In this document: piece by piece, positions 23,801 through 54,403 of the stretch
Layout: every line of letters begins with the position of its first letter
Numbering within the stretch: the first letter of the stretch is position 1
Source of the DNA: Siphonodentalium dalli
Lineage: Eukaryota; Mollusca; Scaphopoda; Gadilida; Siphonodentaliidae
DNA length: 64,000 nucleotides
Assembly: GCA_032622095.1 (NCBI GenBank)
Contig: CP136069.1
Coordinates: 32,021,194-32,085,193, forward strand
Reading direction: 5' to 3'
Program-made: the position numbers and the translations under genes
Notes under the pieces: model-generated
The model's input: the letters and a program-made list of their open reading frames with translations, nothing else
Databases searched by the model: none
What the model was told of the DNA's origin: nothing

Positions 23801-24400
23801 CCAAAAACTATATCAAACTGCCCTCATGATATCCGAAACTGATGGATTTTACACACCCTGGCTGAGAAAAGTGAAGAGTATTTTAAATGATTGTGGGTTA
23901 TCATATATGTGGATCGGACAGAACTCCGCCATAGATTTAAATATAACCATATCGCTGGTGAAACAGAAACTGACTGATCAATATATTCAACAATGGCATG
24001 AATCGTGTAAACGCTCCAGTCGAGGAGAAATATACAGGATATTAAAACCGGAATTTGGTCAGGAATATTACATCTCCGAGTTTCGTGATGACATAAAATT
24101 TACCCTAGCTCGATTCAGAACAAGCAACCACCCATTACCAATAGAAAAGGGTAGGTGGCATAGTACACCCGTGATGATCGAATATGTACACTATGTTACA
24201 ACGGCCAAATCGGTGACGAAATTCACTATATGTTTTACTGTCAATCATTATCAACAGAGCGAAAAATGCTGTTGCACAAGTCATATTGGAATTACCCAAG
24301 TCCAATGAAACTAAGAATCTTGTTCTCCACGAGAAAACCATCGATAGCTAGGAGACTCTGTAAATTTATCAAGATTATGGAGGGTCGACTAGTTACTTGA
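20857..24400 (+). pseudogene. LINE C ORF2, APE endonuclease and reverse transcriptase, two frame breaks
   Basis: The endonuclease begins near 20914 with ILTLNVCGLKRR and shows the catalytic ESK, VYIPPE, GDFNAR, DYV and SDAHCAL blocks in the usual order. The first frame stops at 22261-22263, and the next (22293-24308) continues the same protein, consistent with loss of one T in a T-run near 22250. The reverse transcriptase shows NYRGITLLS (about 22675), NQSGFRKKHSTIDNI (about 22780), CIDFEKAFDRVW (about 22885), GLKQGDNISPFLFSLYINDL (about 23060) and YADD at 23217-23228. A second break near 24160-24180 is followed, in another frame, by a CTLC...H...C zinc-knuckle-like motif ending at TGA 24398-24400. 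There is no in-frame ATG upstream of the endonuclease; the first possible codon near its start is TTG. Confidence 0.85.
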
Positions 24401-31736: not shown

Positions 31737-32601
31737 TGTTTTCTATTGTTCAACCATTAACCTGGAACAACGAAAAACTTCTATATGCTGATAAAACCCC
31801 ACCAACAAAAGAAAGACCCATATGCGACTGAAAGTTACTTCTGAAAGTATGATATGATTGGAAAGCGATACACTCCAAACACATTAATCACAACAATCGA
31901 TATGTTTTGTTATCAAGTTCAAAAATACATGAAATTATCGATAAACTGATTTATCACATATTTTAATTTTTTCGCACACTAGTTAGACACACTCGTTGTC
32001 TATATTTAACTAAGTCTGGACATTATGCGCTGTTTAAAAATGAAGAAACACCTGGTCCCGATTTTCTAGCTTAAATTACTTGTGAATATAAAGTCCGCAT
32101 GTAAGCATTTCACATATTTGTCGACATATTTAGATTACCAGAACAGGAAGTATAAGCACGACTAAAGTACAAGTCGGGACTCATACTACCACATGCCTTG
32201 GGTTCGACGCTTGGGGATTTTATCTTACTTTAACTGGTCCAGTGCTGGGAGACCATAATTGGACCCTACGCGTAAGAGTGCTGGAAGCCCAGATCTGGAG
32301 CGGCGTTACTGTATTGTTTGTTTAGTTTAATCATTTAAATCATGTTTGTCAGGTAATATTTATGAAATAGTGTTACATATATAACTAAATTAAATTAAAG
32401 ACATCCAGGCTCATATCCATAACCTAATATGACAATCAGATTACTAACCATAACCTAATCAGACAACCAGACTCATAACCTAATCCAAAATGTACATATG
32501 TGTGGGGCTCAAGTTCGAAAAAAGAGTGCAAATGTAGTAAATTATATACTCCAAGAATAAATTTCAATGATTTTCTGTTTATTGAAATATATATCTATCT
32601 A
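31737..32601. other. Unassigned sequence between foldback and Helitron array
   Basis: AT-rich, with a threefold CATAACCTAAT string at about 32410-32480 and no credible gene. The A at 32601 is the presumed host base at the Helitron 5' junction. Confidence 0.45.
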
Positions 32602-33693
32602 TCTATACTATATATTTTGAGACTTCGTATATATGTGTGTGTGTGTGTGTGTACTTCATAGAATCCAAAACGCGTGTAAAGATTGAGCTCAAACTTTCTA
32701 TGTAAGTGTCAGATCCCACCGACACGACCGTGGTCGCGGTATAGAGAAGCTCAGAGCACCCGTTCTCCAATCTCAAATCACCGCAAAGGCACGGCGTGGG
32801 TTAATCAAGTGATTATTTAATGAGCGTTTGTTTTTTGACGCATCTCTATAAAGAGCGTCTGTTTGCCATTCAACGTTATTTGCATCTGCAGAGAGATATA
32901 CGGAACATACATTAAATTTAAAAAACATTTGTTTCTGACCAACCCTGCGAGCACGGATGGCGCGCTTTGTTTTTACAGTATATAGTTATATACCGAAATC
33001 ATCCCAGATAATCACGAATATAGCATCAGATTTCTCCCCAGATATACCGTTATAAAGCTACTGGAATCTGCCAATCTACGGGAAATTCCAGGGAATGCCG
33101 ATTGAGCTCAAACTTGCTACCCACGGGAAATGTCATATATATGAGTGTGTCCTTTATAGACTCGAACCGATTGAGCTCAAACTTGCTAAATAAGAAAATA
33201 GCCCCCAAGCCGTAAATATCAACAACAACGATATTACTAAATACACGTTTCGGGGAGCCGTGATGCCAACAACAACGACCCGAAGCCCTGAATGCCAACA
33301 ACAGATTCAATGCAATGTTATCTATCATGCAGCGAGATTTCACGACATTACGACGGGTATAATAACGGCAGACTCAAAATATTATGCAGACAGATTTCCC
33401 GACGAGAAGCGTTTGTTTTAAATTCAATGCAATGTTATCGTAGAGAGATTTCACGAAACAAAGAATGCGTTGTCTGTCGTTCCTAGGAAGGGGGGATTTC
33501 TACGGGTAAATTTTTCCGCCAGAAACAAAAAAATTAATAAAAACAATTTACAATTTAATTAAAACAATTTAAAATTAAAAAAAAATTAACAATAAAAAAA
33601 CAATTCAGAAACAAAATATATTAAATTTAAAAAACATTAAATTCATATTCAAAAATAAAAAAACATGCCGCCAGTGGCGGGCTAACCTGCTAG
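32602..33693 (+). mobile_element. Helitron unit 1
   Basis: 1092 bp. The 5' two-thirds match units 7-9 (TGACGCATCTCTATAAAGAG, ATTGAGCTCAAACTTGCTA twice). The 3' third is an A-rich tail ending in hairpin CCGCC-AGT-GGCGG and CTAG. Confidence 0.85.
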
Positions 33694-34851
33694 TCTATAC
33701 TATATATTTTGAGACTTCGTATATATATATGTATGTATGTGTGTACTTCATAGAATCCAAAACGCGTGTACAGATTGAGATCAAATTTCGTATGTAAGTG
33801 TAAAATCACACCGACACCGCCGTAATCGTGTTTTCGAGAAGCTCTGAGCACCCTTTATCCACTCCCAGTCATCGAAATCAGCTCAAACGGCACGGCCGGG
33901 GTTAATAACGTCATTATATATATATATGAAGTCAGAGTCTCCAAAGTTATACCGGAACAAACACGTGTTTACGTCGTCTTGGGGGTCCACGATGGGAGTC
34001 TGACTTCAATGCAATGTTATCGCTCGAAACACGTGTTTACTTCGTGTTGAGGTTCACGATGGGAGTCTGACAATTGTTATCGCTCGAAATAGTACATTAG
34101 GACGGGAACGGCTGGACAGATTGAGCTCAAACTTCCCATCTAAAGGTAAAATACCACGTACGATGTCGTCCACGCGTTTTCCAGAAGCTTCGAGCACCCG
34201 TACTCCACTCCCAGTCATGAAAATCAGCTCAAACGGCACGGCCGGGGTTAATAACGTCATTATATATATATATACGAAGTCAACGTTATTAGCATCTGCA
34301 TTGAGTGCATTTCCTAGAACGCAACACGTGTTTTACGTCGTCTTGAGGTTCACGATGGGAGTCATTTCAATGCAATGTTATCGCTCGAAACACGTGTTTA
34401 CTTCGTGTTGAGGTTCACGATGGGAGTCTGACATTTCAATGCAATGTTATCGCTCGAAATATTATGCAGAAAGGCAGATATCGGAAACGGGTGGAGCTAT
34501 CGACCTGAAATTTGCTATGTGAATGTATCTTGCACCGGGTACAAATTTTATCGGGTCGCAGAGTCCATGCGACGCCCGTGCAGCGCATGCGCAGACGAGA
34601 TCTCGGAAACGGGTGGAGCTATCGACTTGAAATTTGCTATGTGAATGTATCTTGCGCCGGGTACAAATTTTATCGGGTCGCCGAGTCCGTGCGACGCCAG
34701 CTTCGCGCATGCGCAGACCAGATCTCGGAAACGGGTGGAGCTACCGGGTACAAATTTTTCTTATTGAAACGCGTGGAGCTAAAAATTAATAACAAATATT
34801 AAAAAAATGTCATGTTTCGGACAAGCCGCCGGTGGCGGGCTAACCTGCTAG
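33694..34851 (+). mobile_element. Helitron unit 2
   Basis: 1158 bp, founder-like member of the unit 2-5 subfamily. It has two internal roughly 120-bp repeats with GCGCATGCGCAGAC, and the 3' hairpin CCGCC-GGT-GGCGG then CTAG. Confidence 0.88.
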
Positions 34852-36001
34852 TCTATACTATATATTTTGAGACTTCGTATGTGTGTATGTGTGTACTTCA
34901 TAGAATCCAAAACGCGTGTACAGATTGAGATCAAATTTCGTATGTAAGTGTAAAATCCCACCGACACCGCCGTAGATGTGTTTTCGAGAAGCTCTGAGCA
35001 CCCTTTATCCACTCCCAGTCATCGAAATCAGCTCAAACGGCACGGCCGGGGTTAATAACGTCATTATATATATATATGAAGTCAGAGTCTCCAAAGTTAT
35101 ACCGGAACAAACACGTGTTTACGTCGTCTTGGGGGTCCACGATGGGAGTCTGACTTCAATGCAATGTTATCGCTCGAAACACGTGTTTACTTCGTGTTGA
35201 GGTTCACGATGGGAGTCTGACAATTGTTATCGCTCGAAATAGTACATTAGGACGGGAACGGCTGGACAGATTGAGCTCAAACTTCCTATCTAAAGGTAAA
35301 ATACCACGTACGATGTCGTCCACGCGTTTTCCAGAAGCTCCGAGCACCCGTACTCCACTCCCAGTCATAAAAATCAGCTCAAACGGCACGGCCGGGGTTA
35401 ATAACGTCATTATATATATATATACGAAGTCAACGTTATTAGCATCTGCATTGAGTGCATTTCCTAGAACGCAACACGTGTTTTACGTCGTCTTGAGGTT
35501 CACGATGGGAGTCATTTCAATGCAATGTTATCGCTCGAAACACGTGTTTACTTCGTGTTGAGGTTCACGATGGGAGTCTGACATTTCAATGCAATGTTAT
35601 CGCTCGAATTATTATGCAGAAAGGCAGATCTCGGAAACGGGTGGAGCTATCGACCTGAAATTTGCTATGTGAATGTATCTTGCACCGGGTACAAATTTTA
35701 TCGGGTCGCCGAGTCCATGCGACGCCCGTGCAGCGCATGCGCAGACGAGATCTCGGAAACGGGTGGAGCTATCGACTTGAAATTTGCTATGTGAATGTAT
35801 CTTGCGCCGGGTACAAATTTTATCGGGTCGCCGAGTCCGTGCGACGCCAGCTTCGCGCATGCGCAGACCAGATCTCGGAAACGGGTGGAGCTACCGGGTA
35901 CAAATTTTTCTTATTGAAACGCGTGGAGCTAAAAATTAAAAACAAATATTAAAAAAATGTCATGTTTCGGACAAGCCGCCGGTGGCGGGCTAACCTGCTA
36001 G
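34852..36001 (+). mobile_element. Helitron unit 3
   Basis: 1150 bp, nearly identical to unit 2. The main length difference is the TATG/TGTG microsatellite just inside the 5' end. Confidence 0.88.
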
Positions 36002-37163
36002 TCTATACTATATATTTTGAGACTTCGTATATATGTGTGTATATGTGTGTGTGTGTACTTCATAGAATCCAAAACGCGTGTACAGATTGAGATCAAATTT
36101 CGTATGTAAGTGTAAAATCCCACCGACACCGCCGTAGATGTGTTTTCGAGAAGCTATGAGCACCCTTTATCCACTCCCAGTCATCGAAATCAGCTCAAAC
36201 GGCACGGCCGGGGTTAATAACGTCATTATATATATATATGAAGTCAGAGTCTCCAAAGTTATACCGGAACAAACACGTGTTTACGTCGTCTTGGGGGTCC
36301 ACGATGGGAGTCTGACTTCAATGCAATGTTATCGCTCGAAACACGTGTTTACTTCGTGTTGAGGTTCACGATGGGAGTCTGACAATTGTTATCGCTCGAA
36401 ATAGTACATTAGGACGGGAACGGCTGGACAGATTGAGCTCAAACTTCCTATCTAAAGGTAAAATAACACGTACGATGTCGTCCACGCGTTTTCCAGAAGC
36501 TCCGAGCACCCGTACTCCACTCCCAGTCATAAAAATCAGCTCAAACGGCACGGTCGGGGTTAATAACGTCATTATATATATATATACGAAGTCAACGTTA
36601 TTAGCATCTGCATTGAGTGCATTTCCTAGAACGCAACACGTGTTTTACGTCGTCTTGAGGTTCACGATGGGAGTCATTTCAATGCAATGTTATCGCTCGA
36701 AACACGTGTTTACTTCGTGTTGAGGTTCACGATGGGAGTCTGACATTTCAATGCAATGTTATCGCTCGAAATATTATGCAGAAAGGCAGATCTCGGAAAC
36801 GGGTGGAGCAATCGACCTGAAATTTGCTATGTGAATGTATCTTGCACCGGGTACAAATTTTATCGGGTCGCCGAGTCCATGCGACGCCCGTGCAGCGCAT
36901 GCGCAGACGAGATCTCGGAAACGGGTGGAGCTATCGACTTGAAATTTGCTATGTGAATGTATCTTGCGCCGGGTACAAATTTTATCGGGTCGCCGAGTCC
37001 GTGCGACGCCAGCTTCGCGCATGCGCAGACCAGATCTCGGAAACGGGTGGAGCTACCGGGTACAAATTTTTCTTATTGAAACGCGTGGAGCTAAAAATTA
37101 AAAACAAATATTAAAAAAATGTCTTGTTTCGGACAAGCCGCCGGTGGCGGGCTAACCTGCTAG
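36002..37163 (+). mobile_element. Helitron unit 4
   Basis: 1162 bp. Matches unit 5 base for base as far as I can see, including its private changes (AAGCTATGAGCACC, CACGGTCGGGG, ATGTCTTGTTTCGG). Confidence 0.88.
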
Positions 37164-38325
37164 TCTATACTATATATTTTGAGACTTCGTATATATGTGT
37201 GTATATGTGTGTGTGTGTACTTCATAGAATCCAAAACGCGTGTACAGATTGAGATCAAATTTCGTATGTAAGTGTAAAATCCCACCGACACCGCCGTAGA
37301 TGTGTTTTCGAGAAGCTATGAGCACCCTTTATCCACTCCCAGTCATCGAAATCAGCTCAAACGGCACGGCCGGGGTTAATAACGTCATTATATATATATA
37401 TGAAGTCAGAGTCTCCAAAGTTATACCGGAACAAACACGTGTTTACGTCGTCTTGGGGGTCCACGATGGGAGTCTGACTTCAATGCAATGTTATCGCTCG
37501 AAACACGTGTTTACTTCGTGTTGAGGTTCACGATGGGAGTCTGACAATTGTTATCGCTCGAAATAGTACATTAGGACGGGAACGGCTGGACAGATTGAGC
37601 TCAAACTTCCTATCTAAAGGTAAAATAACACGTACGATGTCGTCCACGCGTTTTCCAGAAGCTCCGAGCACCCGTACTCCACTCCCAGTCATAAAAATCA
37701 GCTCAAACGGCACGGTCGGGGTTAATAACGTCATTATATATATATATACGAAGTCAACGTTATTAGCATCTGCATTGAGTGCATTTCCTAGAACGCAACA
37801 CGTGTTTTACGTCGTCTTGAGGTTCACGATGGGAGTCATTTCAATGCAATGTTATCGCTCGAAACACGTGTTTACTTCGTGTTGAGGTTCACGATGGGAG
37901 TCTGACATTTCAATGCAATGTTATCGCTCGAAATATTATGCAGAAAGGCAGATCTCGGAAACGGGTGGAGCAATCGACCTGAAATTTGCTATGTGAATGT
38001 ATCTTGCACCGGGTACAAATTTTATCGGGTCGCCGAGTCCATGCGACGCCCGTGCAGCGCATGCGCAGACGAGATCTCGGAAACGGGTGGAGCTATCGAC
38101 TTGAAATTTGCTATGTGAATGTATCTTGCGCCGGGTACAAATTTTATCGGGTCGCCGAGTCCGTGCGACGCCAGCTTCGCGCATGCGCAGACCAGATCTC
38201 GGAAACGGGTGGAGCTACCGGGTACAAATTTTTCTTATTGAAACGCGTGGAGCTAAAAATTAAAAACAAATATTAAAAAAATGTCTTGTTTCGGACAAGC
38301 CGCCGGTGGCGGGCTAACCTGCTAG
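37164..38325 (+). mobile_element. Helitron unit 5
   Basis: 1162 bp, apparent duplicate of unit 4, pointing to very recent tandem amplification. Confidence 0.88.
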
Positions 38326-39010
38326 TCTTCTATATATTTTGAGAACTCCTTGTATTCGAGAGATAGCCCACACCCTCCGGACCTCAATGATATGATCGTG
38401 AATGAGTATTGATATACCCCACTAAACTTTGACAAACACCAGTAATGGTGTGTAGATCATTTACATATCTCTCCTATATATTTTGATACAATCTATCTAA
38501 TTTACATATCTCTCTTATATATTTATGTTTGTGTGTGTGTTGTACTTCATACAAATCTACGATTCTCGACCGATCGGGACGAAACTTGGTACGTGTGTGT
38601 AGTTTGACCAGGCGGTGGTCGTTGTCGTATTGGCGAGCCCGTGCGACGCCCGTGCAGCGCATGCGCAGACGAGATCTCGGAAACGGGTGGAGCTATCGAC
38701 TTGAAATTTGCTATGTGAATGTATCTTGCGCCGGGTACAAATTTTATCGGGTCGCCGAGCCCGTGCGACGCCCGTGCAGCGCATGCGCAGACGAAATCTC
38801 GGAAACGGGTGGAGCTATCGACTTGAAATTTGGCATGTGAATGTATCTTGCGCCGGGTACAAATTTTCATGCGCAGACCAGATCTCGGAAACTGGTGGAG
38901 CTACCGGGTACAAATTTTTCTTATTGAAACGCGTGGAGCTAAAAATAAAAAAAATATATATATAAATGTCATGTTTCGGACAAGCCGCCGGTGGCGGGCT
39001 AACCTGCTAG
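38326..39010 (+). mobile_element. Helitron unit 6, chimeric
   Basis: 685 bp. The 5' part (TCTTCTATATATTTTGAGAA and about 200 bp after) is unlike any other unit. From about 38560 it joins the ACCGATCGGGACGAAACTTG module of units 7-9 and the common 3' end. One internal repeat is cut short near 38866. Confidence 0.82.
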
Positions 39011-40331
39011 TACTATATATTTTGAGACTTCGTATATATGTGTGTGTGTACTTCATAGAATCCAAAACGCGTGTACAGATTGAGCTCAAACTTCCTATGT
39101 AAGTGTCAAATCCCACCGACACGACCGTGGTCGCAGTTTAGAAAAGCTCAGAGCACCCGTTCTCCAATCTCAAATCACCGTAAAGGCACGGCGTGGGTTA
39201 ATCAAGTGATTATTTAATGAGCGTTTGTTTTTGACGCATCTCTATAAAGAGCGTCTGTTTGCCATTCAACGCTATTTGCATCTGCAGAGAGATATACGGA
39301 ACATACATTAAATTAAAAAAAACATTTGTTTCTGACCAACCCTGCGAGCACGGATGGCGCGCTTTGTTTTTACAGTATATAGTTATATACCGAAATCATC
39401 CCAGATAATCACGAATATAGCATCAGATTTCTCCCCAGATATACCGTTATAAAAAGCTACTGGAATCTGCCAATCTACGGGAAATTCCAGGGAATGCCGA
39501 TTGAGCTCAAACTTGCTACCCACGGGAAGTGTCATATATATGAGTGTGTCCTTTATAGACTCGAACCGATTGAGCTCAAACTTGCTAAATAAGAAAATAG
39601 CCCCCAAGCCGTAAATATCAACAACAACGATATTGCTACCTACGGGGAGCAACGTTATTAGCATCTGCAGAATTATGCAGAGAGAAAATGCTTTCCTATT
39701 TTTAGAACGCAACACATGCTTACGTCGCGTTGGTGATTGAGGTTCACAACGGGGTTAATTGACTGTCCGCTCTTTGCGACGATGAGGTTCACGGCGGGGA
39801 CTATTGACCAACACTCACAATTTCGTCTTTTGCATCAGATACCAACACCTCGACCGATCGGGACGAAACTTGGTACGTGAGTGTAGTTTGACCAGGTGGT
39901 CGTCGCTGTCGTATTGGCGAGCCCGTGCGACGCCCGTGCAGCGCATGCGCAGACGAGATATCGGAAACGGGTGGAGCTATCGACTTGAAATTTGGTATGT
40001 GAATGTATCTTGCGCCGGGTACAAATTTTATCGGGTCGCCGAGCCCGTGCGACGCCCGTGCAGCGCATGCGCAGACGAGATCTCGGAAACGGGTGGAGCT
40101 ATCGACTTGAAATTTGCTATGTGAATGTATCTTGCGCCGGGTACAAATTTTATCGGGTCGCCGAGTCCGTGCGACGCCAGCTTCGCGCATGCGCAGACCA
40201 GATCTCGGAAACGGGTGGAGCTACCGTGTACAAATTTTTCTTATTGAAACGCGTGGAGCTAAAAATTAAAAACAAATATTAAAAAAATGTCATGTTTCGG
40301 ACAAGCCGCCGGTGGCGGGCTAACCTGCTAG
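39011..40331 (+). mobile_element. Helitron unit 7
   Basis: 1321 bp. The first four bases of the usual 5' end are missing (CTAG is followed directly by TACTATATATTTTGAG). It carries three internal roughly 120-bp repeats. Confidence 0.85.
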
Positions 40332-41533
40332 TCTATACTATATATTTTGAGACTTCGTATATATGTGTGTGTGTACTTCATAGAATCCAAAACGCGTGTA
40401 CAGATTGAGCTCAAACTTCCTATGTAAGTGTCAAATCCCACCGACACGACCGTGGTCGCAGTTTAGAAAAGCTCAGAGCACCCGTTCTCCAATCTCAAAT
40501 CACCGTAAAGGCACGGCGTGGGTTAATCAAGTGATTATTTAATGAGCGTTTGTTTTTGACGCATCTCTATAAAGAGCGTCTGTTTGCCTTTCAACGCTAT
40601 TTGCATCTGCAGAGAGATATACGGAACATACATTAAATTAAAAAAACATTTGTTTCTGACCAACCCTGCGAGCACGGATGGCGCGCTTTGTTTTTACAGT
40701 ATATAGTTATATACCGAAATCATCCCAGATAATCACGAATATAGCATCAGATTTCTCCCCAGATATACCGTTATAGAAAGCTACTGGAATCTGCCAATCT
40801 ACGGGAAATTCCAGGGAATGCCGATTGAGCTCAAACTTGCTACCCACGGGAAGTGTCATATATATGAGTGTGTCCTTTATAGACTCGAACCGATTGAGCT
40901 CAAACTTGCTAAATAAGAAAATAGCCCCCAAGCCGTAAATATCAACAACAACGATATTGCTACCTACGGGGAGCAACGTTATTAGCATCTGCAGAATTAT
41001 GCAGAGAGAAAATGCTTTCCTATTTTTAGAACGCAACACATGTTTACGTCGCGTTGGTGATTGAGGTTCACAACGGGGTTAATTGACTGTCCGCTCTTTG
41101 CGACGATGAGGTTCACGGCGGGGACTATTGACCAACACTCACAATTTCGTCTTTTGCATCAGATACCAACACCTCGACCGATCGGGACGAAACTTGGTAC
41201 GTGAGTGTAGTTTGACCAGGTGGTCGTCGCTGTCGTATTGGCGAGCCCGTGCGACGCCCGTGCAGCGCATGCGCAGACGAGATATCGGAAACGGGTGGAG
41301 CTATCGACTTGAAATTTGGTATGTGAATGTATCTTGCGCCGGGTACAAATTGTATCGGGTCGCCGAGTCCGTGCGACGCCAGCTTCGCGCATGCGCAGAC
41401 CAGATCTCGGAAACGGGTGGAGCTACCGTGTACAAATTTTTCTTATTGAAACGCGTGGAGCTAAAAATTAAAAACAAATATTAAAAAAATGTCATGTTTC
41501 GGACAAGCCGCCGGTGGCGGGCTAACCTGCTAG
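40332..41533 (+). mobile_element. Helitron unit 8
   Basis: 1202 bp. Matches units 7 and 9 but lacks one roughly 120-bp internal repeat, as expected from slippage or unequal exchange. Confidence 0.88.
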
Positions 41534-42856
41534 TCTATACTATATATTTTGAGACTTCGTATATATGTGTGTGTGTACTTCATAGAATCCAAAACGCGTG
41601 TACAGATTGAGCTCAAACTTCCTATGTAAGTGTCAAATCCCACCGACACGACCGTGGTCGCAGTTTAGAAAAGCTCAGAGCACCCGTTCTCCAATCTCAA
41701 ATCACCGTAAAGGCACGGCGTGGGTTAATCAAGTGATTATTTAATGAGCGTTTGTTTTTGACGCATCTCTATAAAGAGCGTCTGTTTGCCTTTCAACGCT
41801 ATTTGCATCTGCAGAGAGATATACGGAACATACATTAAATTAAAAAAACATTTGTTTCTGACCAACCCTGCGAGCACGGATGGCGCGCTTTGTTTTTACA
41901 GTATATAGTTATATACCGAAATCATCCCAGATAATCACGAATATAGCATCAGATTTCTCCCCAGATATACCGTTATAGAAAGCTACTGGAATCTGCCAAT
42001 CTACGGGAAATTCCAGGGAATGCCGATTGAGCTCAAACTTGCTACCCACGGGAAGTGTCATATATATGAGTGTGTCCTTTATAGACTCGAACCGATTGAG
42101 CTCAAACTTGCTAAATAAGAAAATAGCCCCCAAGCCGTAAATATCAACAACAACGATATTGCTACCTACGGGGAGCAACGTTATTAGCATCTGCAGAATT
42201 ATGCAGAGAGAAAATGCTTTCCTATTTTTAGAACGCAACACATGTTTACGTCGCGTTGGTGATTGAGGTTCACAACGGGGTTAATTGACTGTCCGCTCTT
42301 TGCGACGATGAGGTTCACGGCGGGGACTATTGACCAACACTCACAATTTCGTCTTTTGCATCAGATACCAACACCTCGACCGATCGGGACGAAACTTGGT
42401 ACGTGAGTGTAGTTTGACCAGGTGGTCGTCGCTGTCGTATTGGCGAGCCCGTGCGACGCCCGTGCAGCGCATGCGCAGACGAGATATCGGAAACGGGTGG
42501 AGCTATCGACTTGAAATTTGGTATGTGAATGTATCTTGCGCCGGGTACAAATTTTATCGGGTCGCCGAGCCCGTGCGACGCCCGTGCAGCGCATGCGCAG
42601 ACGAGATCTCGGAAACGGGTGGAGCTATCGACTTGAAATTTGCTATGTGAATGTATCTTGCGCCGGGTACAAATTTTATCGGGTCGCCGAGTCCGTGCGA
42701 CGCCAGCTTCGCGCATGCGCAGACCAGATCTCGGAAACGGGTGGAGCTACCGTGTACAAATTTTTCTTATTGAAACGCGTGGAGCTAAAAATTAAAAACA
42801 AATATTAAAAAAATGTCATGTTTCGGACAAGCCGCCGTGGCGGGCTAACCTGCTAG
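41534..42856 (+). mobile_element. Helitron unit 9
   Basis: 1323 bp, nearly identical to unit 7, with the full 5' end. One G is lost in the terminal hairpin loop region (GCCGCCGTGGCGGG). Confidence 0.88.
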
Positions 42857-43240
42857 TCTACTATATATTTTGAGACTTCCGTATATATATGTGTGTGTAT
42901 ATATGTGGGTACGTCATGGAATCGAAAACGCCTGGACGGATTGAGCTCAAATTTCGTATATGCGTTGTCTGTCGTTCCTAGGAAGGGGGGATTTCATCGG
43001 GTCAATTAGAATAAAAATTAAATAAATAGGTCAGTTAGAATAAAAATTAAATAAATATTAAAAAATTCAAAAAAACATAAATTAAATTAAAAAAAACATT
43101 AAATTAATATTAAAAAAAAAAAAATTAATATTAAAAAATTAAAAAAATTAAAAATTAAAAAAATATATAAATAAAAACAAAATAATTACAAAAATGTCAT
43201 GTTTCTGACCAACCACGCCAGTGGTGGGCTAACCTGCTAG
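42857..43240 (+). mobile_element. Helitron unit 10, short
   Basis: 384 bp: a 5' end, a TGGACGGATTGAGCTCAAAT module, an A-rich tail and a weaker hairpin (CACGCCAGTGGTGGG) before CTAG. Confidence 0.82.
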
Positions 43241-44095
43241 TCTACTATATATTTTGAGACTTCCGTATATATGTGTGTATATATGTGTGTGTATATACTT
43301 TATAGAGTCGAAAACGGCTGCACCGATCGACACCAAATTTCGTATATAAGGGTAAAAACACACGGGAATGTTCAACGTCGCATTTTGGACATGCTCTGAG
43401 CACTAATTCTCCACTCCCAATCATCAAAATCACCGCAAACGGCACTTCGGGGGTTAAGACATCAACGGTATTTATATTGACCATATTTGGAGTTGTTAAC
43501 CGACTAACGCTCTTTATTGCCATCGGGGTTGCTAAACGGTTACCCATGTGTACGAAACTACGGACGCAAAACGCGAAATGCATTTATCTTGATTAAAAAG
43601 GCAGAATTAACGTGTTGTGTGATTCTCATGTCTGTCGTTCCTAGGAACGGGGGAATTTTTCAATCATACCTCTTTTAGGGACGGGTACTGCGTGTTGTGT
43701 GAAAACAAAAAATGCGTGTTGTGTGATTCTTATGTCTGTCGTTCCTAGGAACGGGGAAAATTTTCATTGGGTCATTTTTTCCGCCAGATGTACCTTAAAT
43801 CATACCTCCTTTAGGGACGGGTACTGCGTGTTGTGTGATTCTTATGTCTTCTTCACCTTAATCGGGTAAAATAAGGGCTAATCGGGTAAAATATTGAAAA
43901 ACCAAAAATTAAATTAAAAAATTAATCAACAAAATTAATTCAAAAGTCCAGTAAATTAAAAATGCACAATTAACTCATGTTATAAACAAAACATTAATAT
44001 TAACTCATTGAAAGAAAAAAATTTAAATTCAAAAATTAATTAAAAAATTAATTTAAATTCTGACAAACGCCGCCAGTGGCGGGCTAACCTGCTAG
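43241..44095 (+). mobile_element. Helitron unit 11
   Basis: 855 bp. It has threefold TCGTTCCTAGGAACGGGG modules (a palindromic TTCCTAGGAA), an A-rich tail, hairpin CCGCC-AGT-GGCGG and CTAG. Confidence 0.82.
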
Positions 44096-45215
44096 TCTAA
44101 TATATATTTTGGGACTTCTGTTTGTCTGTCTGTCTGTTAGCTATGGCCGGGAAAACTGTCGGACGGATTGAGCCCAAACTTCCTATCTAAGGGTAAAATA
44201 CCAGATGGAATGTCATCGCACCGCTTCTGAGAACGTCAGAGCACTCATTCTCCAATCCCCCGCCACCGCAATGGGTAGTTCATGGGTTAATCGCGTGATA
44301 GTTAAAGAGCGTTCGTATCCGCAGTGTCGTTGATAAAGAGCGTTTAGACACTGTTAAACCGTTACGTAGGAAATATGCATGCATTTCCATTGCATAGAAC
44401 TCGCTTCTACGAATCTTCCCAATGCTGGCAATATTGTTAATAAATGCGTTTATGTCTCTTCGATAATTGCCTATTACAATTAAAGCGTGGAGTCTGTCCA
44501 TTTTCCCATGAAAAATCGAATTCTACGACCACCGGGTTCTAGATATGTTATTATTTCCGACATCGTCATTTTTGTCACTCGAAATCACTTCGGCGTCAAT
44601 TCATCCCTTGCGAGGTCATCTAAAATTATGTCTTCACTTCCCAGTTATGCCCCAGGGTGTGGACTATGAGGAGAGATTTATTGCAAGTCATAAGATATTT
44701 TTTATTGCCCGGGAACAATACTTATTAGTTGATTCCATCGATCGTCTTATGTTTCCGTTTTGGACGCATCGAGTAAATAATGTACTTGCACTAAATCGTA
44801 CCTTTTGACTAATCGCCGAGAGGCTTTATCTGTATGACATGATAAGGGTGCTGCTTTGTTCTGGACGGGTCAAAACCGTCAAATCGTTACCCCGACCTGA
44901 CATTGACCTTCAAAATGGTCAATTCCATGTCAAATAGGGTAAAACGCACGGATTTCGACGAATTTTGTTTACCTAGGGGGTACTTTTTTCGGGGACTGTT
45001 TTCGATGGGTCAAATCGTGATCCCGACCAGACCTTGGCCTTAAAAATGGTAAATTCAAGGTCAAATCGGGTAAAACGGACGGATTTCTTTATACCTAGGG
45101 CTACTTTTGTCCGGGGAGTGTTTTGTCCGGGTCAAATCGTTACCCCGACCTGACCTTGACCTTCAAAATGGTCAATTCAAGGTCAAAGCCCGGACGAAGT
45201 CGGGTCACCTGCTAG
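44096..45215 (+). mobile_element. Helitron unit 12, different 3' family
   Basis: 1120 bp. The 5' end is TCTAATATATATTTTGGGAC. The 3' hairpin differs from the other units (CCCGGAC-GAA-GTCGGG) but still ends ACCTGCTAG. It contains about 2.5 tandem copies of a roughly 115-bp repeat (44870-45190) with TGACCTTGACCTTCAAAATG. Confidence 0.85.
44870..45190 (+). repeat. 115-bp repeats with nuclear-receptor-like half-sites
   Basis: Copies contain TGACCTTGA or its complement TCAAGGTCA (about 45137, 45055 and 45175), the extended half-site bound by ERR, SF-1 and FTZ-F1 type receptors. This is a sequence match only. Confidence 0.6.
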
Positions 45216-45400
45216 TACGCATTTAATTATGTGTATGTAGGATATTTACTATCGAACCAGTTAAAACCATCCAGTGGATATCGATGTTTAACCCTGTAAT
45301 GACAGAAGTACGCTGGTGCAAGCATTAACGATCATGACAGCGTCAGTGCATTCTTTGATATATGGGAGTCTCCCATAGCTAGGGAGCTTCGCAAATTTAA

Positions 45401-46787: not shown

Positions 46788-46900
46788 GTACGTATATTAA
46801 GTTCAACTTTAGCATGATTCAAATGTCTAGTTGATGTAGTGTAAGCGAGATACCTTATATTTGTATAATTTTGCAATCATTGACTATGATTTGGGCGCCT

Positions 46901-47685
46901 GTCACCGGGGACGTGGCGACACGGTGGGGGCCACCAGTTGTTGGAAATATTCCAACCTTAGGGGGGTATCAGGTTGGAAATTTCTAACAAATGGAAAGCT
47001 AGAGGCCAGGATTTAGCAATTTTCAATCTCAGATTTCAGAATTTCTAAACGATGGTCAGCTCGGTGTGTCCTGGTCTTTCTCAATGCAGTGGCCAGTACA
47101 AAAACGCTATTTAATTTAGGAAAAACAAATGGGTATTGGAATTTGCCTGGCGTCAGAGCATTACATGTTATGGGAAGTTGCAAATGTCAGGTTCATGTGT
47201 CATAATGTTCTCACACTGGGCCGAACGCGGTGGATTCTGCCCCCCCCTGGTCAGTGGCAACAAGACTACTGATCAATATATTATAATAGGCTACCAGGTC
47301 TATGAGAGAACAGTTGAGACAAATCAGAGCACAATGAGGGGGTGGATGCATATGGCAAATGGAATTACGAAAACTTGTGAGTTTGGTTTAGTGGCGGGCG
47401 GGGCAGTTCCAATGCGTATACACCACGCCCAAAACGGAGAACACGTCCCGTAAGTCATTTTCCCCAATGGCACGTGAACCCTATTAGGTTAGTTTTAAAA
47501 TGTCCTATTTAAAACCATAACTCCACCATATACATGTTCGTGTTCTATACCAAACCATAATTATATTTTATAAGACACAAGCACGCGCCCATTAATATGG
47601 GGTATCAACATTCAGAAAATGTTATAAGTTCTAACACATGCATTTTTGTCAACTTAGAAATCATCCCAAAACCACACAATCGGTT
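46901..47685 (+). repeat. Outer segment of the left arm
   Basis: It mirrors about 53610-54403 and resembles the older copy at 2140-2745. A 105-codon frame (47136) is open in both arms except around a poly-G/C tract that differs in length. I do not regard it as a gene. Confidence 0.7.
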
Positions 47686-48110
47686 AATAATAAAGAGCGT
47701 TCGTGATTTCGCCGCCCAAATCGGTTAATAATAAAGAGCGGTCATGCTTTCGCCGCACACAATCGGTTAATAATAAAGAGCGTTCGTGATTTCGCCGCCC
47801 AAATCGGTTAATAATAAAGAGCGTTCATTCTTCCGCCGCCCAAAATCGGTTAAATATAAAGAGCGTTCATGCTTCCGCCGCCCAAAATCGGTTAAATATA
47901 AAGAACATTCATGCTTCCGCCGCACACAATCGGTTAATAATAAAGAGCGTTCGTGATTTCGCCGCCCAAATCGGTTAATAATAAAGAGCGTTCATGCTTC
48001 CGCCGCCCAAAATCGGTTAAATATAAAGAGCATTCATGCTTCCGCCGTTCAAAACTGATTAATAATAAAGAGCGTTAATGCTTCCGCCGTCCAAAACTGG
48101 TTAATAATAC
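47686..48110 (+). repeat. 43-bp satellite, short array (left arm)
   Basis: About 10 copies of a unit containing CGGTTAATAATAAAGAGCG, then TTCATGCTTCCGCCGCCCAA. Variants alternate GTGATTTCGCCG and ATGCTTCCGCCG. A few isolated units recur at about 48470-48525. Confidence 0.9.
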
Positions 48111-48300
48111 ATAGATAGAACCGCATGAGTGTCTGGATTTCGACAAAATTATCGCACGAGATTTGTTGGCGGAGCGACACCTCGAGTGTGGGACGCAGTC
48201 GCGCACGAGAGGTATCGCGTTCCGCCAACAAATCGAGTGCGATAATTCGTCAAAATCCAGACACTCATACGGTTCTATTTTTATTACATATCTCCGTATC
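48111..48300. repeat. Hairpin flanking the satellite (left arm)
   Basis: An inverted repeat of about 75-bp arms (AACCGCATGAGTGTCTGGAT ... ATCCAGACACTCATACGGTT) has its centre near 48185. It mirrors 52330-52510 in the right arm. Confidence 0.75.
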
Positions 48301-48635
48301 ATAGTAAATTGACTCACAATCGTACATCTCCGGTACAGAAAATGTGAATTTAATTGAGTTTTAACACTGAATGAAATAGTTCCGTCGACAGATTGCACTA
48401 GTGCGATTCTGAGAATTAACACACGCCTGGAAACTCGTGCAATCATGCAAATTACGTTGATAGATATATAATAAAGAGCGTTCATGCTTCCGCCGCCCAA
48501 AACTGGTTAATAATAACGAGCGTTCTCAATTGTGATGTTTTGCTATTGTTTTTTATGTAATACTTATGAACGCTTTTGTGGATTTTCGCGACGCCGGTGC
48601 GATATGATTAAAACTTGCAAGTTTGCAGACATTAA

Positions 48636-48999
48636 CCCTTTACGCAACAGAACGGCCCTGTGCCAATGCATTCTCTTATATATGCGAGTCGACCATAGGT
48701 CGCCTCGCATATATAAGAGAATGCATTGGCTTAACATATTAAAAATTATAAAATTGTTAAAGAATGTAAGAACAAAATGGTAAAAAGTGTTAGGCCAATG
48801 CATTCTCTTATATATGCGAGGCGACCTATGGTCGACTCGCATATATAAGAGAATGCATTGGCACAGGGCATAACTGTAACTATCACAATGTGGTCAAGGA
48901 GCCGGTTCCAATGATATCCATATTTGTATGGTTTTATTGAGACAGACCGAAGATATTTTAGGCTGTTGAAGCTTTATTTGGCCGGTTTTGGGTAAAGGG
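48636..48999 (+). mobile_element. MITE-B in the left arm
   Basis: TTAA at 48632-48635 and 49000-49003, and a repeated GGG-TTAA just after. It has two roughly 70-nt hairpins. It is present at the mirror position in the right arm, so it inserted before the arm duplication. Confidence 0.85.
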
Positions 49000-49003
49000 T
49001 TAA

Positions 49004-49930
49004 AGGGTTAAAAATGTTCGTCGCAGAAAACGGCATATATGTTGTCAGAATATGAACGGAAATATGCACATAAAAATAAAATGCATTTGTACCACAGCTA
49101 ACAACATGAGAAGTAAACTATCTGTAGTTCCACCGGCAGCAATTCTAAAAAAAAAATGCCTGTTAATATCATGCAGTTATATCGAAGGCAATGCAAAAAA
49201 CACCGTTACATGTAGAACTACAGAGAAGTTACTTCTCATGTTGACAGTTTTGATAAAGATGCAATGTACATGTTTAGGCATTTTTCCGTTCATAGTCTGG
49301 CAAACTTGCGAGCGTGTTATTATACCTTTAGGGTACGTTCATACACTGGTAAGTTTGCACGGTATGGGTTGCAGGCATTTTGTCCTAGAAAACGATATGG
49401 TGCTATAATATGAATGGAAACATGCACAAAATGTGCATCTGTGCTACAGCTAACTACGTGCGAAGTAAAATCTCTGTAGTTCCACTGGTAACGATGCTAC
49501 CATAATTTGCCTGTAAATAGCATGCAATTATCTCGCAAGAACAAATCATACAGGTATTTGAAGGCAAAATCCAGTATCACTGTTACAAGTGGAACTAAAT
49601 AAATGTTACTTCTCATGTCTTTCGCTTTGGTAAAGTTGCATGCTGTGTGCACGTTTCCGTTCATATTCTGGCACCATGTGGTTTTCTATGACGAATTGTC
49701 GGATTAATGCCCGCAAAAACATACCGTGTAAACTTGCCGGCGTATGAACGTACCCTTATATAGGGTACCTGCATCCACTGGCAAGTCAGCGCGGTATGTT
49801 TTTGCAGGCATTTGCTCATATAAAACCCTATGGTGCCATTATATGACGGCAACATGGATATAAGATGCATATTTACCAAAGCTAACGACGTAACACTTTG
49901 CCTTAAAAAAACCTGCATGATTGATTCTTG
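49004..49930. repeat. Inner segment of the left arm
   Basis: Built from repeated modules with TATGAACGGAAA, GCAAACTTGCCAG or ACTGGTAAGTTTGC, and GTATGAACGTACCC. The modules themselves form small inverted repeats (for example around 49730-49800). No gene. Confidence 0.65.
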
Positions 49931-49936
49931 CGAGGA

Positions 49937-50685
49937 AATTGCATGTTATATTCAATGTACAGGCAAACTGAGATAAAATTGTTACTTATGGAACTACACC
50001 GTTCTTTTACCTTTAACCCTTTCAGTGCCAGGGGCCGATCTTATCGGCCCTAATTTACGGTCTGTAAAATCGGCCCTAAAACCTAAAAATATAAAAAAAA
50101 AATAGTTTTTTTTTTTAGATTTGTTTTGTTTTGGGTTGAATTTTTTTCGGCATGTTATAACTCAAAACTATCACCAAGTATTCATAGTAATAATTTTGAT
50201 GCCCATGAAAAACGTGAGATTCCCTGGCACTAAACCTACAAAATAAGTCTGGCACTGAAAGAGTTAAAGAATATAAGAAAAAATTATTAAAATTGTAAAC
50301 AATTGTAAAAAATAATAACAAATGATGAAAAATTGTTAGGCCAATGCATTCTCTTATATATGCGAGGCGACCTATGGTAGACTCGCATATATAAGATAAT
50401 GCATTGGCACAGGGTATATGGGTTGATACAAAAATCGGACCTGGCACTCAAAGGGTTAATGTAGTTAGATGTGGTATAGGTACATTTTATAAGAATTTTT
50501 GCATTGGGTTTCTGTCACAATGCAGCTTTCAATACCGAAATACCTGCACAAGAATGCCTGGAAAATTTGCGAGTGCTTGGACGTACCCTATAATAGGCGG
50601 AATCAATTCGCTTAGAACATTCTGGATCATTTGGAACGTACATGTAGATCTTTAAATTAATAATTGCTGCAATTCGGCTTAACAA
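49937..50685 (+). repeat. Spacer segment S, first copy
   Basis: 749 bp from AATTGCATGTTATATTC to CGGCTTAACAA. It is repeated in direct orientation at 54404-55153. It contains MITE-D. Confidence 0.88.
50017..50455 (+). mobile_element. MITE-D, TTAA-flanked, with one hairpin
   Basis: TTAA at 50013-50016 and 50456-50459. The ends are CCCTTTCAGTGCCAGGGG and CCTGGCACTCAAAGGG. An inner copy of the terminus (CTGGCACTGAAAGAG-TTAA, about 50250-50268) suggests a shorter element plus an added 3' piece. That piece brings the AT-rich spacer, one roughly 70-nt hairpin (50338-50408) and GGCACAGGG seen in MITE-B. Confidence 0.82.
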
Positions 50686-51602
50686 GAATCAATCATGCAG
50701 GTTTTTTTTAAGGCAAAGTGTTACGTCGTTAGCTTTGGTAAATATGCATCTTATATCCATGTTGCCGTCATATAATGGCACCATAGGGTTTTATATGAGC
50801 AAATGCCTGCAAAAACATACCGCGCTGACTTGCCAGTGGATGCAGGTACCCTATATAAGGGTACGTTCATACGCCGGCAAGTTTACACGGTATGTTTTTG
50901 CGGGCATTAATCCGGCAATTCGTCATAGAAAATCACATGGTGCCAGAATATGAACGGAAACGTGCACACAGCATGCAACTTTACCAAAGCGAAAGACATG
51001 AGAAGTAACATTGATTTAGTTCCACTTGTAACAGTGATACTGGATTTTGCCTTCAAATACCTGTATGATTTATTCTTGCGAGATAATTGCATGCTATTTA
51101 CAGGCAAATTATGGTAGCATCGTTACCAGTGGAACTACAGAGATTTTACTTCGCACGTAGTTAGCTGTAGCACAGATGCACATTATGTGCATGTTTCCAT
51201 TCATATTATAGCACCATATCGTTTTCTAGGACAAAATGCCTGCAACCCATACCGTGCAAACTTACCAGTGTATGAACGTACCCTAAAGGTATAATAACAC
51301 GCTCGCAAGTTTGCCAGACTATGAACGGAAAAATGCCTAAACATGTACATTGCATCTTTATCAAAACTGACAACATGAGAAGTAACTTCTCTGTAGTTCT
51401 ACATGTAACGGTGTTTTTTGCATTGCCTTCGATATAACTGCATGATATTAACAGGCATTTTTTTTTTAGAATTGCTGCCGGTGGAACTACAGATAGTTTA
51501 CTTCTCATGTTGTTAGCTGTGGTACAAATGCATTTTATTTTTATGTGCATATTTCCGTTCATATTCTGACAACATATATGCCGTTTTCTGCGACGAACAT
51601 TT
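50683..51602. repeat. Inner segment of the right arm
   Basis: Mirror of 49004-49930 with only scattered differences. Confidence 0.8.
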
Positions 51603-51614
51603 TTAACCCTTTAA

Positions 51615-51977
51615 CCCTTTACCCAAAACCGGCCAAATAAAGCTTCAACAGCCTAAAATATCTTCGGTCTGTCTCAATAAAACCATACAAATATGGATAT
51701 CATTGGAACCGGCTCCTTGACCACATTGTGATAGTTACAGTTATGCCCTGTGCCAATGCATTCTCTTATATATGCGAGTCGACCATAGGTCGCCTCGCAT
51801 ATATAAGAGAATGCATTGGCCTAACACTTTTACCATTTTGTTCTTACATTCTTTAACAATTTTATAATTTTTAATATGTTAAGCCAATGCATTCTCTTAT
51901 ATATGCGAGGCGACCTATGGTCGACTCGCATATATAAGAGAATGCATTGGCACAGGGCCGTTCTGTTGGGTAAAGGG
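51615..51977 (-). mobile_element. MITE-B in the right arm
   Basis: Mirror of 48636-48999, with TTAA at 51611-51614 and 51978-51981 and two roughly 70-nt hairpins. Confidence 0.85.
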
Positions 51978-52329
51978 TTAATGTCTGCAAACTTGCAAGT
52001 TTTAATCATATCGCACCGGCGTCGCGAAAATCCACTAAAGCGTTCATAAGTATTACATAAAAAGCAATAGCAAAACATCACAATTGAGAACGCTCGTTAT
52101 TATTAACCAGTTTTGGGCGGCGGAAGCATGAACGCTCTTTATTACATATCTATCAACGTAATTTGCATGATTGCACGAGTTTCCAGGCGTGTGTTAATTC
52201 TCAGAATCGCACTAGTGCAATCTGTCGACGGAACTATTTCATTCAGTGTTAAAACTCAATTAAATTCACATTTTCTGTACCATAGATGTACGATTGTGAG
52301 TCAATTTACTATGATACGGAGATATGTAA

Positions 52330-52510
52330 TAAAAATAGAACCGTATGAGTGTCTGGATTTTGACGAATTATCGCACTCGATTTGTTGGCGGAACGCGATA
52401 CCTCTCGTGCGGGACTGCGTCCCACACTCGAGGTATCGCTCCGCCAACAAATCTCGTGCGATAATTTTGTCGAAATCCAGACACTCATGCGGTTCTATCT
52501 ATGTATTATT
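52330..52510. repeat. Hairpin flanking the satellite (right arm)
   Basis: Mirror of 48111-48300: ACCGTATGAGTGTCTGGAT ... ATCCAGACACTCATGCGGT. Confidence 0.75.
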
Positions 52511-53545
52511 ACCCAGTTTTGGACGGCGGAAGCATTAACGCTCTTTATTATTAATCAGTTTTGAACGGCGGAAGCATGAATGCTCTTTATATTTAACCGA
52601 TTTTGGGCGGCGGAAGCATGAACGCTCTTTATTATTAACCGATTTGGGTGGCGAAATCACGAACGCTCTTTATTATTAACCGATTGTGTGCGGCGGAAGC
52701 ATGAATGTTCTTTATATTTAACCGATTTTGGGCGGCGGAAGCATGAACGCTCTTTATTATTAACCGATTTGGGCGGCGAAATCACGAACGCTCTTTATTA
52801 TTAACCGATTGTGTGCTGCGAAAGCATGACCGCTCTTTATTATTAACCGATTTTGGGCGGCGGAAGCATGAACGATCTTTATATTTAACCGATTTTGGGC
52901 GGCGGAAGCATGAACGCTCTTTATTATTAACCGATTTGGGCGGCGAAATCACGAACGCTCTTTATTATTAACCGATTGTGTGCTGCGAAAGCATGACCGC
53001 TCTTTATTATTAACCGATTTTGGGCGGCGGAAGCATGAACGCTCTTTATATTTAACCGATTTTGGGCGGCGGAAGAATGAACGCTCTTTATTATTAACCG
53101 ATTTGGGCGGCGAAATCACGAACGCTCTTTATTATTAACCGATTGTGTGCGGCGGAAGCATGAATGTTCTTTATATTTAACCGATTTTGGGCGGCGGAAG
53201 CATGAACGCTCTTTATTATTAACCGATTTGGGCGGCGAAATCACGAACGCTCTTTATTATTAACCGATTGTGTGCTGCGAAAGCATGACCGCTCTTTATT
53301 ATTAACCGATTTTGGGCGGCGGAAGCATGAACGCTCTTTATATTTAACCGATTTTGGGCGGCGGAAGAATGAACGCTCTTTATTATTAACCGATTTGGGC
53401 GGCGAAATCACGAACGCTCTTTATTATTAACCGATTGTGTGCGGCGAAAGCATGACCGCTCTTTATTATTAACCGATTTTGGTCAGCGGAAGCATGAACG
53501 CTCTTTATTATTAACCGGTTTTTGGTGGCGGAAGCATGCACGCCC
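52511..53545 (-). repeat. 43-bp satellite, expanded array (right arm)
   Basis: About 24 copies of the 43-bp unit, with one unit beyond the hairpin at about 52095-52140. Higher-order blocks are visible: the variant GTGTGCTGCGAAAGCATGAC recurs near 52810, 52977 and 53265, spaced about 4 and 7 units. The left arm has only about 10 copies. Confidence 0.9.
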
Positions 53546-54403
53546 TTCGTGTTATAGGAGGCCATCATTTTTGGTACAGGTTCCCTGGTGCGACAACCCA
53601 CCATGAGTATGGACCTGTGGTTTTGGGATGATTTCTAAGTTGACAAAAATGCATGTGTTAGAACTTATAACATTTTCTGAATGTTGATACCCCATATTAA
53701 TGGGCGCGTGCTTGTTTCTTATAAAATCTAATTATGGTTTGGTATAGAACACGAACATGTATATGGTGGAGTTATGGTTTTAAATAGGACATTTTAAAAC
53801 TAACCTAATAGGGTTCACGTGCCATTGGGGAAAATGACTTACGGGACGTGTTCTCCGTTTTGGGCGTGGTGTATACGCATTGGAACTGCCCCGCCCGCCA
53901 CTAAACCAAACTCACAAGTTTTCGTAATTCCATTTGCCATATGCATCCACCCCCTCATTGTGCTCTGATTTGTCTCAACTGTTCTCTCATAGACCTGGTA
54001 GCCTATTATAATATATTGATCAGTAGTCTTGTTGCCACTGACCAGGGGGGGGGGGGGGGGGGGGCAGAATCCACCGCGTTCGGCCCTGTGTGAGAACATT
54101 ATGACACATGAACCTGACATTTGCAACTTCCCATAACATGTAATGCTCTGACGCCAGGCAAATTCCAATACCCATTTGTTTTTCCTAAATTAAATAGCGT
54201 TTTTGTACTGGCCACTGCATTGAGAAAGACCAGGACACACCGAGCTGACCATCGTTTAGAAATTCTGAAATCTGAGATTGAAAATTGCTAAATCCTGGCC
54301 TCTAGCTTTCCATTTGTTAGAAATTTCCAACCTGATACCCCCCTAAGGTTGGAATATTTCCAACAACTGATGGCCCCCACCGTGTCGCCACGTCCCTGGT
54401 GAC
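53546..54403. repeat. Outer segment of the right arm
   Basis: Mirror of the left outer segment. An extra roughly 90 bp at about 53546-53620, next to the satellite, has no left-arm counterpart. A 20-base G tract lies near 54043-54062. Confidence 0.75.

Follow-up and report, generated by a model that had tools for sequence, protein, structure and literature searches.

How does a genome come to carry twelve Helitrons joined end to end, without a single base between them? We address this question in a 64-kb stretch of the scaphopod Siphonodentalium dalli (C9:32021194-32085193 in an assembly of 9 contigs and 2.23 Gb; hereafter the window), where 12 non-autonomous Helitron copies from several subfamilies follow each other head to tail on the + strand, from 32602 to 45215, with 0 bases between units. 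The array is known from the assembly alone, and our analysis confirms that it is real. A preliminary description of the locus offered two origins for it, one rolling-circle event that failed to terminate, or repeated integration at the same end. We find that the array very probably grew mainly in the second manner, by repeated and independent insertion of Helitrons into the 5′ ends of Helitrons already in place. The evidence is in the insertion site, in the exact way in which some 5′ ends have been cut, and in where the missing bases are found.

The boundaries of this spacer-free array were reproduced as originally drawn. All 11 internal junctions read CTAG/T (here and below, a slash marks a junction or a point of insertion), and 10 of the 11 read CTAG/TC; CTAG ends 12 of the 12 units, and TC starts 11 of the 12. 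The exception is unit 7, which begins TACTATATATT and is short by four bases. The hexamer CTAGTC is present in the window at chance level (12 seen, 12.87 expected), and 10 of those 12 hexamers are the array junctions, embedded in longer conserved ends. A pairwise comparison of the units, which the preliminary description had called for, agrees with its view that units 4 and 5 are identical (100% over 1,162 bp) and that unit 12 belongs to a different subfamily, as do units 10 and 11. Units 2-5 (group A) share 98.4-100% identity and units 7-9 (group B) 99.7-99.9%, and clearly different units meet at six junctions (1/2, 5/6, 6/7, 9/10, 10/11, and 11/12). Unit 6 has a 5′ part of its own and a shared 3′ part, and this, together with the chimeric unit 1, implies that 5′ and 3′ halves have been shuffled between subfamilies. 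That TC and CTAG are the true ends of the elements is upheld by the full-length relatives of unit 12 elsewhere in the genome, which have matching ends at up to 94% identity (39 of 5,791 candidates scored). Elsewhere in the window there are no further copies of the units, except for one weak 38-nt match. Units 2-9 also carry 122-bp internal tandem repeats (window 34476-42725) that vary in copy number, a possible satellite seed.

What did the site look like before the array? We joined the two flanks (250 + 250 bases) and matched them against the genome. The joined flanks match a dispersed repeat, and 37 of the first 38 non-self matches listed run through the join (82-86%). These empty sites are paralogues of the repeat, not alleles. 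In the 20 copies that we read, the join is ATA/TAC in 16, has substitutions in 2, and has a CCGG-containing insertion in 2. The eight bases directly before unit 1, TCTATCTA, are absent from 20 of 20. Because they are missing from every paralogous copy read, we assign these bases (32594-32601), foreign to the site, to the insertion, which most likely spans 32594-45215. The A and T proposed as outer flanks hold up in part: the host T is at 45216 as described, and the left edge is at 32594 and not at 32602, with the host A at 32593. The same applies to the proposed empty site, as the A/T site does exist in paralogous copies, but the last eight bases of the supposed left flank are not part of it. 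Outside the array, TCTA stands before the T in 62 of 5,400 A/T sites. The dispersed repeat itself (32399-32601 and 45216-45265) is split by the array about 50 bp from its right end, and has a tandem motif of its own.

From these elements, we propose how the array was built. The first Helitron most likely went into the A/T of a dispersed repeat, with nothing duplicated and nothing lost, as judged from paralogous and not allelic empty sites. Once there, a Helitron reads A/TC, and given the established target choice of Helitrons and the junctions observed here, its edge would again be an AT target. The next element would land on that edge with its CTAG abutting the older TC, and the site would be renewed each time. 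Landing on the resident edge would leave no host base between units, and the host A and T only on the outside. Starts of the form TCTATAC hold a second AT four bases in, TCTA/TAC. If a newcomer lands there, the older unit is left to start with TAC, and its TCTA is shifted to the left of the newcomer. We call stripped a Helitron that begins TAC, without TCTA, and extra a start with additional copies of TCTA. Here, unit 6 would have stripped unit 7; units 5 to 1 would then have gone in, each to the right of the displaced TCTA and to the left of the unit that was leftmost at the time, which would bring the TCTA to the left border of the array. No extra TCTA stands at unit 6, directly before the stripped unit 7; the copy would have moved further left with the later landings. 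In addition, rolling-circle multimers or unequal exchange may have produced the identical runs (4-5, perhaps 7-9).

As an example of such a footprint, a group A unit on contig C4 is interrupted at GACTTCA/TATATATA, a site that is intact in 84 exact copies in the regions fetched. The insert consists of two units, A/TCTA-TCTTCTCTTC...CTAG/TACTATA...CTAG/T. TCTA is absent from the site and from the right unit but present at the left edge. Another copy of the same group A site holds a single unit, A/TCTATAC...CTAG/T, with one TCTA. As the target site has none to give, the TCTA at the left edge of the double insert is best explained as the right-hand unit's own copy.

Joined ends of this kind are found throughout the genome. 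In what follows, pattern totals are whole-genome counts, and positions come from the first 100 listed, which for the joined-end and junction patterns are on C1. The joined ends GGGCTAACCTGCTAG, 0 to 30 bases of any kind, TATATTTTGAGA occur 5,313 times, and GGCGGGCTAACCTGCTAG with T and then any base but T behind it 10,268 times; junctions of the TCTATAC family are found whole (CTAG/TCTATAC) 2,472 times and cut (CTAG/TACTATA) 2,117 times. The reversed-pattern controls for all of these give 0. Copies of the units are listed on all nine contigs.

Self-insertion makes several predictions: that 5′ ends are cut at two points only, that stripped units stand behind CTAG, that extras are found on the left side of stripped units, and that the counts of the two are about balanced. 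Regarding the cuts, T directly follows CTAG in 99 of the 100 junctions that head the listing; 34 of the 100 have an intact TCTATAC, 29 have one cut after TCTA, and 3 more have TAT for TAC. No TCTATAC in those 100 junctions is cut at any other offset, and the remainder are other leaders or runs. Regarding position, in a listing of 5′ ends (first 100 listed, first base not T) 29 lack TCTA, and all 29 are directly behind CTAG. Another 7 have no intact TCTA, of which 6 are altered-looking leaders and 1 lies against host DNA.

The direction of the displacement was evaluated on a sample, C1:0-125 Mb, which has 44 extra-TCTA starts. Within 10 kb, a stripped unit is found only downstream for 20 of them, only upstream for 0, on both sides for 7, and on neither for 17 (downstream only versus upstream only, sign test 9.5e-7). 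Within 1.4 kb, the corresponding numbers are 14, 1, 1, and 28. Together with the paralogous empty A/T site, this tendency of displaced TCTA to sit 5′ of stripped units bears out the suggestion of repeated integration at the same end.

For order, we used 20 regions (the window, 16 picked by group A similarity, and 3 from the C1 listing, several of them cut at their ends) with 191 parsed starts, leaving out two TAT leaders and the reverse-strand inserts at C4:239.69. These regions contain 48 extra TCTA copies versus 53 stripped units. In a cumulative test, the number of positions at which extras outnumber the deficits on their right is 21, versus 96 in the mirror order; shuffles average 56.0, and 1 of 20,000 reaches a value as low. 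The summed peak excess is 16, versus 33 and 24.1 (71 of 20,000). Using junctions alone, there are 4 such positions versus 42 in the mirror and 21.6 in shuffles (16 of 20,000), with a peak of 5 versus 16 and 10.4 (226 of 20,000). Simple adjacency is a weak signal (11 pairs of an extra followed by a zero, 8 of a zero followed by an extra) because the repeats alternate. In 8 internal pairs, an extra-TCTA start comes directly before a stripped one, which implies growth at internal 5′ ends, so that strict growth at the left edge is not required. For 18 chosen of the 27 C1 starts with a stripped unit downstream, extras equal stripped units in 13 and are off by one in 5, but this is a biased choice that we do not use as a test.

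The footprints thus point to growth at 5′ ends, both at the left edge and internally. The claim that the array gained new units at its ends finds support for these 5′ ends; at the right (3′) edge no sign of growth turned up, and no separate test of that edge was made.

Insertion appears not to be the whole story. Placed in a tree, 72 group A units taken from 18 regions require 30 changes of region label, where the minimum is 17 and shuffled labels average 55.9 (0 of 200 as low), which implies that both local copies and independent arrivals occur. Unit 3 is nearest to units of other arrays (99.83% to one on C6), unit 5 is 99.91% identical to a unit on C2, and unit 2 is about equally near to C4 units and to unit 3. 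The identity of units 4 and 5 tells us that local duplication also took place, by way of multimer circles or of unequal exchange, and with the local copies in the tree it agrees with the earlier claim that the array grew by duplication. Elsewhere, there is a higher-order repeat at C2:213, where two consecutive copies of (816+1162) are preceded by a third 816-bp unit, and at C2:102 a 1,725-bp period occurs three times. The occurrence of the pair TCTA-(816)-TAC(1162) twice on C2 suggests that nested units can be amplified together.

Could one or a few rolling-circle events that did not terminate have produced multimers that were then inserted whole? Identical units 4 and 5 and nearly identical units 7-9 are what one would expect from them; near-identical local copies are found in many regions, some as two- or three-unit repeats, and bat Helitron circles that join CTAG to TC are known (PMC4778049, in excerpt). 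Such multimers, on the other hand, would neither strip a unit of its TCTA nor put it upstream, cannot join different subfamilies as six junctions here do, and do not fit with a unit 3 whose nearest relatives are in other arrays. We consider this origin unlikely for the array at large, and the single failed-termination event put forward in the preliminary description is untenable as the sole cause, while for the identical runs (4-5, perhaps 7-9) it is possible. Tandem duplication with unequal exchange between arrays, without any new insertion, has the higher-order repeats on C2 in its favor, but it accounts neither for exact CTAG/TC joins between subfamilies, nor for exact TCTA/TAC cuts or the order of extras and deficits, and exact insertions with empty sites do exist; as a full explanation we find it very unlikely.

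Two further alternatives question the footprints or the array itself. The TAC starts could result from a transposase that at times nicks the 5′ end four bases further in, and microsatellite slippage could have made the TCTA runs, which are after all simple repeats; the two copies of TCTA here for only one stripped unit, an excess also seen in 9 of 20 regions, would go along with it. But then TAC starts should also abut host DNA, and only 1 of the 30 clear listed cases does. Slippage gives no reason for the runs to be 5′ of stripped units, nor for the one-for-one match at the C4 double insertion, with its known empty site, and we find this combination highly improbable. An assembly artifact is the least credible of all: it could produce units as identical as 4 and 5, yet the joined ends occur by the thousands, copies of the units are on nine contigs, there is variation among the units, and an empty site was found.

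Several observations weigh against self-insertion at 5′ ends, at least in its simplest form. The left edge of this array has two extra TCTA, yet unit 7 is the sole stripped unit. Unit 7 would account for one copy; the other could have been brought in by a unit that already carried TCTATCTA, or be due to slippage. Among the 20 regions, several of which are truncated at their ends, 9 have a point at which extras outnumber the stripped units to their right. For 17 of the 44 extras in the C1 sample, no stripped unit of the TCTATAC family lies within 10 kb, and 2 extras have one upstream only at a distance of up to 2.6 kb. Genome-wide, the TCTATAC family has 985 starts with at least two TCTA and 261 with at least three, short of the 2,117 stripped units. 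Starts that are not behind CTAG should be preceded by A, and some are not: A is found in 13 of 15 among the listed 5′ ends (the other 2 follow TCT), in 16 of 18 in the 20-region set (1 T, 1 altered CTAG), and in 8 of 12 of the chosen C1 starts (3 TCT, 1 G). Units with two TCTA have been amplified in place, for instance with a 1,116-bp period near C1:158.16 Mb, so that the counts are not independent events. Finally, strict growth at the left edge would be expected to leave an age gradient, and there is no even one from right to left: the leftmost unit 1 (full-length relative at 93% at best, 95% over positions 1-1061; 40 of 1,301 candidates scored) is no closer to its nearest listed relative than unit 12 (94%), and units 3-5 are at 99.8-99.9%.

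Is a resident 5′ end simply one more AT site, or is it a preferred one? Of 173 junctions, 53 (46 of them distinct in sequence) use the inner AT, TCTA/TAC. Unit bodies, with 16,238 AT sites, have 8 starts within them, or about 16 when counting 6 weaker cases and 2 starts missed by the pattern. Per site, the inner 5′ AT thus has roughly a 300- to 600-fold excess over a unit-body AT, a value inflated by local duplication of junctions and by a search built on intact ends, which also counts against what follows. Because the gap per site is so large, we suggest that the 5′ end of a resident Helitron could actively attract integration as a preferred landing pad, the reverse of target immunity, with newcomers steered to it, perhaps by transposase bound there; the outcome would be mixed arrays of one polarity, with TCTA as a roughly balanced ledger of insertion order. 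This is a tentative proposal, about which we are nearly evenly divided, with doubt slightly ahead. If it is true, composite units would retain TC...CTAG ends and may move as one.

Coordinates for the units and for the edges of the insertion are collected in Table 1.

Table 1. Units of the Helitron array and bases at its edges, in window positions.
Feature	Position	Strand	Description
Host A of the A/T target, left	32593..32593	+	from the empty-site alignment
TCTATCTA	32594..32601	+	two additional copies of the four bases that open the Helitron 5′ end; read as displaced-end footprint, not host
Unit 1	32602..33693	+	1,092 bp; first ~640 bp like group B (units 7-9), different 3′ half; chimera
Unit 2	33694..34851	+	1,158 bp; group A
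Unit 3	34852..36001	+	1,150 bp; group A
Unit 4	36002..37163	+	1,162 bp; group A; same as unit 5
Unit 5	37164..38325	+	1,162 bp; group A; same as unit 4
Unit 6	38326..39010	+	685 bp; TCTTC start; would have landed at TCTA/TAC of unit 7
Unit 7	39011..40331	+	1,321 bp; group B; without its first four bases (TCTA)
Unit 8	40332..41533	+	1,202 bp; group B; lacks one copy of the 122-bp internal repeat
Unit 9	41534..42856	+	1,323 bp; group B; 3′ stem short by one base
Unit 10	42857..43240	+	384 bp; TCTAC start
Unit 11	43241..44095	+	855 bp; TCTAC start
Unit 12	44096..45215	+	1,120 bp; different subfamily; rightmost, putatively the earliest arrival
Host T of the A/T target, right	45216..45216	+	from the empty-site alignment

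The rest of the window has other features. To the right of the array, 46900-54404 is a large near-perfect inverted repeat whose main pieces are 99-100% complementary, with a 791-nt center. At 20857-24308, two overlapping open frames encode a LINE-like endonuclease (below the Pfam cut-off) and a reverse transcriptase (PF00078, 8.6e-40), and part of a second reverse transcriptase is found at 12440-12952. An Rfam scan of the window at gathering thresholds gave no match.

What kind of Helitrons are these? Their ends, 5′ TC and 3′ CTRR, and their insertion at A/T without target-site duplication (observed at the paralogous empty sites of the array and at the group A insertion) are those of canonical Helitrons, the Helitron1 type. 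Canonical Helitrons also have a short palindrome some 10 bp ahead of the 3′ end. A stem such as CCGCC with GGCGG is visible by eye near the 3′ end here, but the four 3′ ends that we folded do not stand out clearly from shuffles (z values from -0.6 to -1.6). The genome has at least 151 matches to the Pfam domain Helitron_like_N (150 of 457 candidates scored), compared with 0 in 14 control genomes, and several are in open frames longer than 1,600 aa. One match, C1:13743912-13744451, is in a large array, between two listed 3′ ends of the family 9.5 kb apart, and is a candidate autonomous partner, which would be expected to encode Rep and helicase and to share the family ends. A mixed cluster of family 3′ ends (G000:C1:13715578-13757750, ~42 kb) includes a 1,614-aa Helitron_like_N frame, possibly an autonomous element within an array. 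A search of viral_contigs for both Helitron ends returned no match. Helentrons or DINEs, the Helitron2 type, have ends other than TC...CTRR and targets other than A/T; the units here, with TC...CTAG ends and an A/T target, do not belong with them. Nor do they form an array of truncated copies of the plant type, as each of the 12 units ends in a CTAG of its own.

Self-renewal of the target at each 5′ end is a better explanation for the exact head-to-tail joins here, and it implies that tandem joins alone are no proof of rolling-circle multimers. Excerpts of the literature cite tandem Helitrons in support of rolling-circle transposition (PMC5876387). The TCTA ledger gives the direction of insertion and a partial order from sequence alone, and it makes array growth, preferred targeting, and the birth of satellites testable in other genomes with similar ends. 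In the open-licence literature searched, as far as its accessible portions go, we found no report of displaced 5′ ends being used to read the direction in which an array grows.

Different known systems share some of these properties, according to excerpts of the works cited. One is the case of Myotis bats, with TC and CTAG ends, an A/T target, and CTAG-TC circles, where new 3′ ends are traced to three sources, among them a Helitron inserted directly beside another (Grabundzija et al. 2016, PMC4778049), although the excerpt reports neither long mixed arrays nor footprints of displaced ends. In fungi, a triple tandem Helitron in Metarhizium acridum and a self-insertion in Fusarium are described, and insertion into the 5′ end is offered for the triplet; unlike here, those are Helitron2-type ends and targets, in one tandem case, and the excerpt leaves the mechanism open (PMC5148889). 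In Drosophila, dimers of transposable elements arise by insertion-site preference (McGurk and Barbash, as reviewed in PMC12628747), and there too the same kind of element comes repeatedly to one site and forms a tandem, but the excerpt does not place them on Helitron 5′ ends or give them a polarity of growth. An Arabidopsis tRNA-Cys cluster has been read as an array of short Helitrons explained by termination failure; its tandem units each show CTAG and then T or C by manual search, but the tools used there gave no reliable Helitron prediction (PMC10701932, in part). And tandem arrays of Helitrons are found at the centromeres of 27 plant genomes (Xiong et al. 2016, as reviewed in PMC12628747). 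According to the excerpted review, those arrays consist of truncated copies, and many of the arrays show several 5′ ends but only one 3′ end, which is put down to replication that lacked a terminator, whereas in the array described here each unit has a 3′ end of its own and the subfamilies are mixed.

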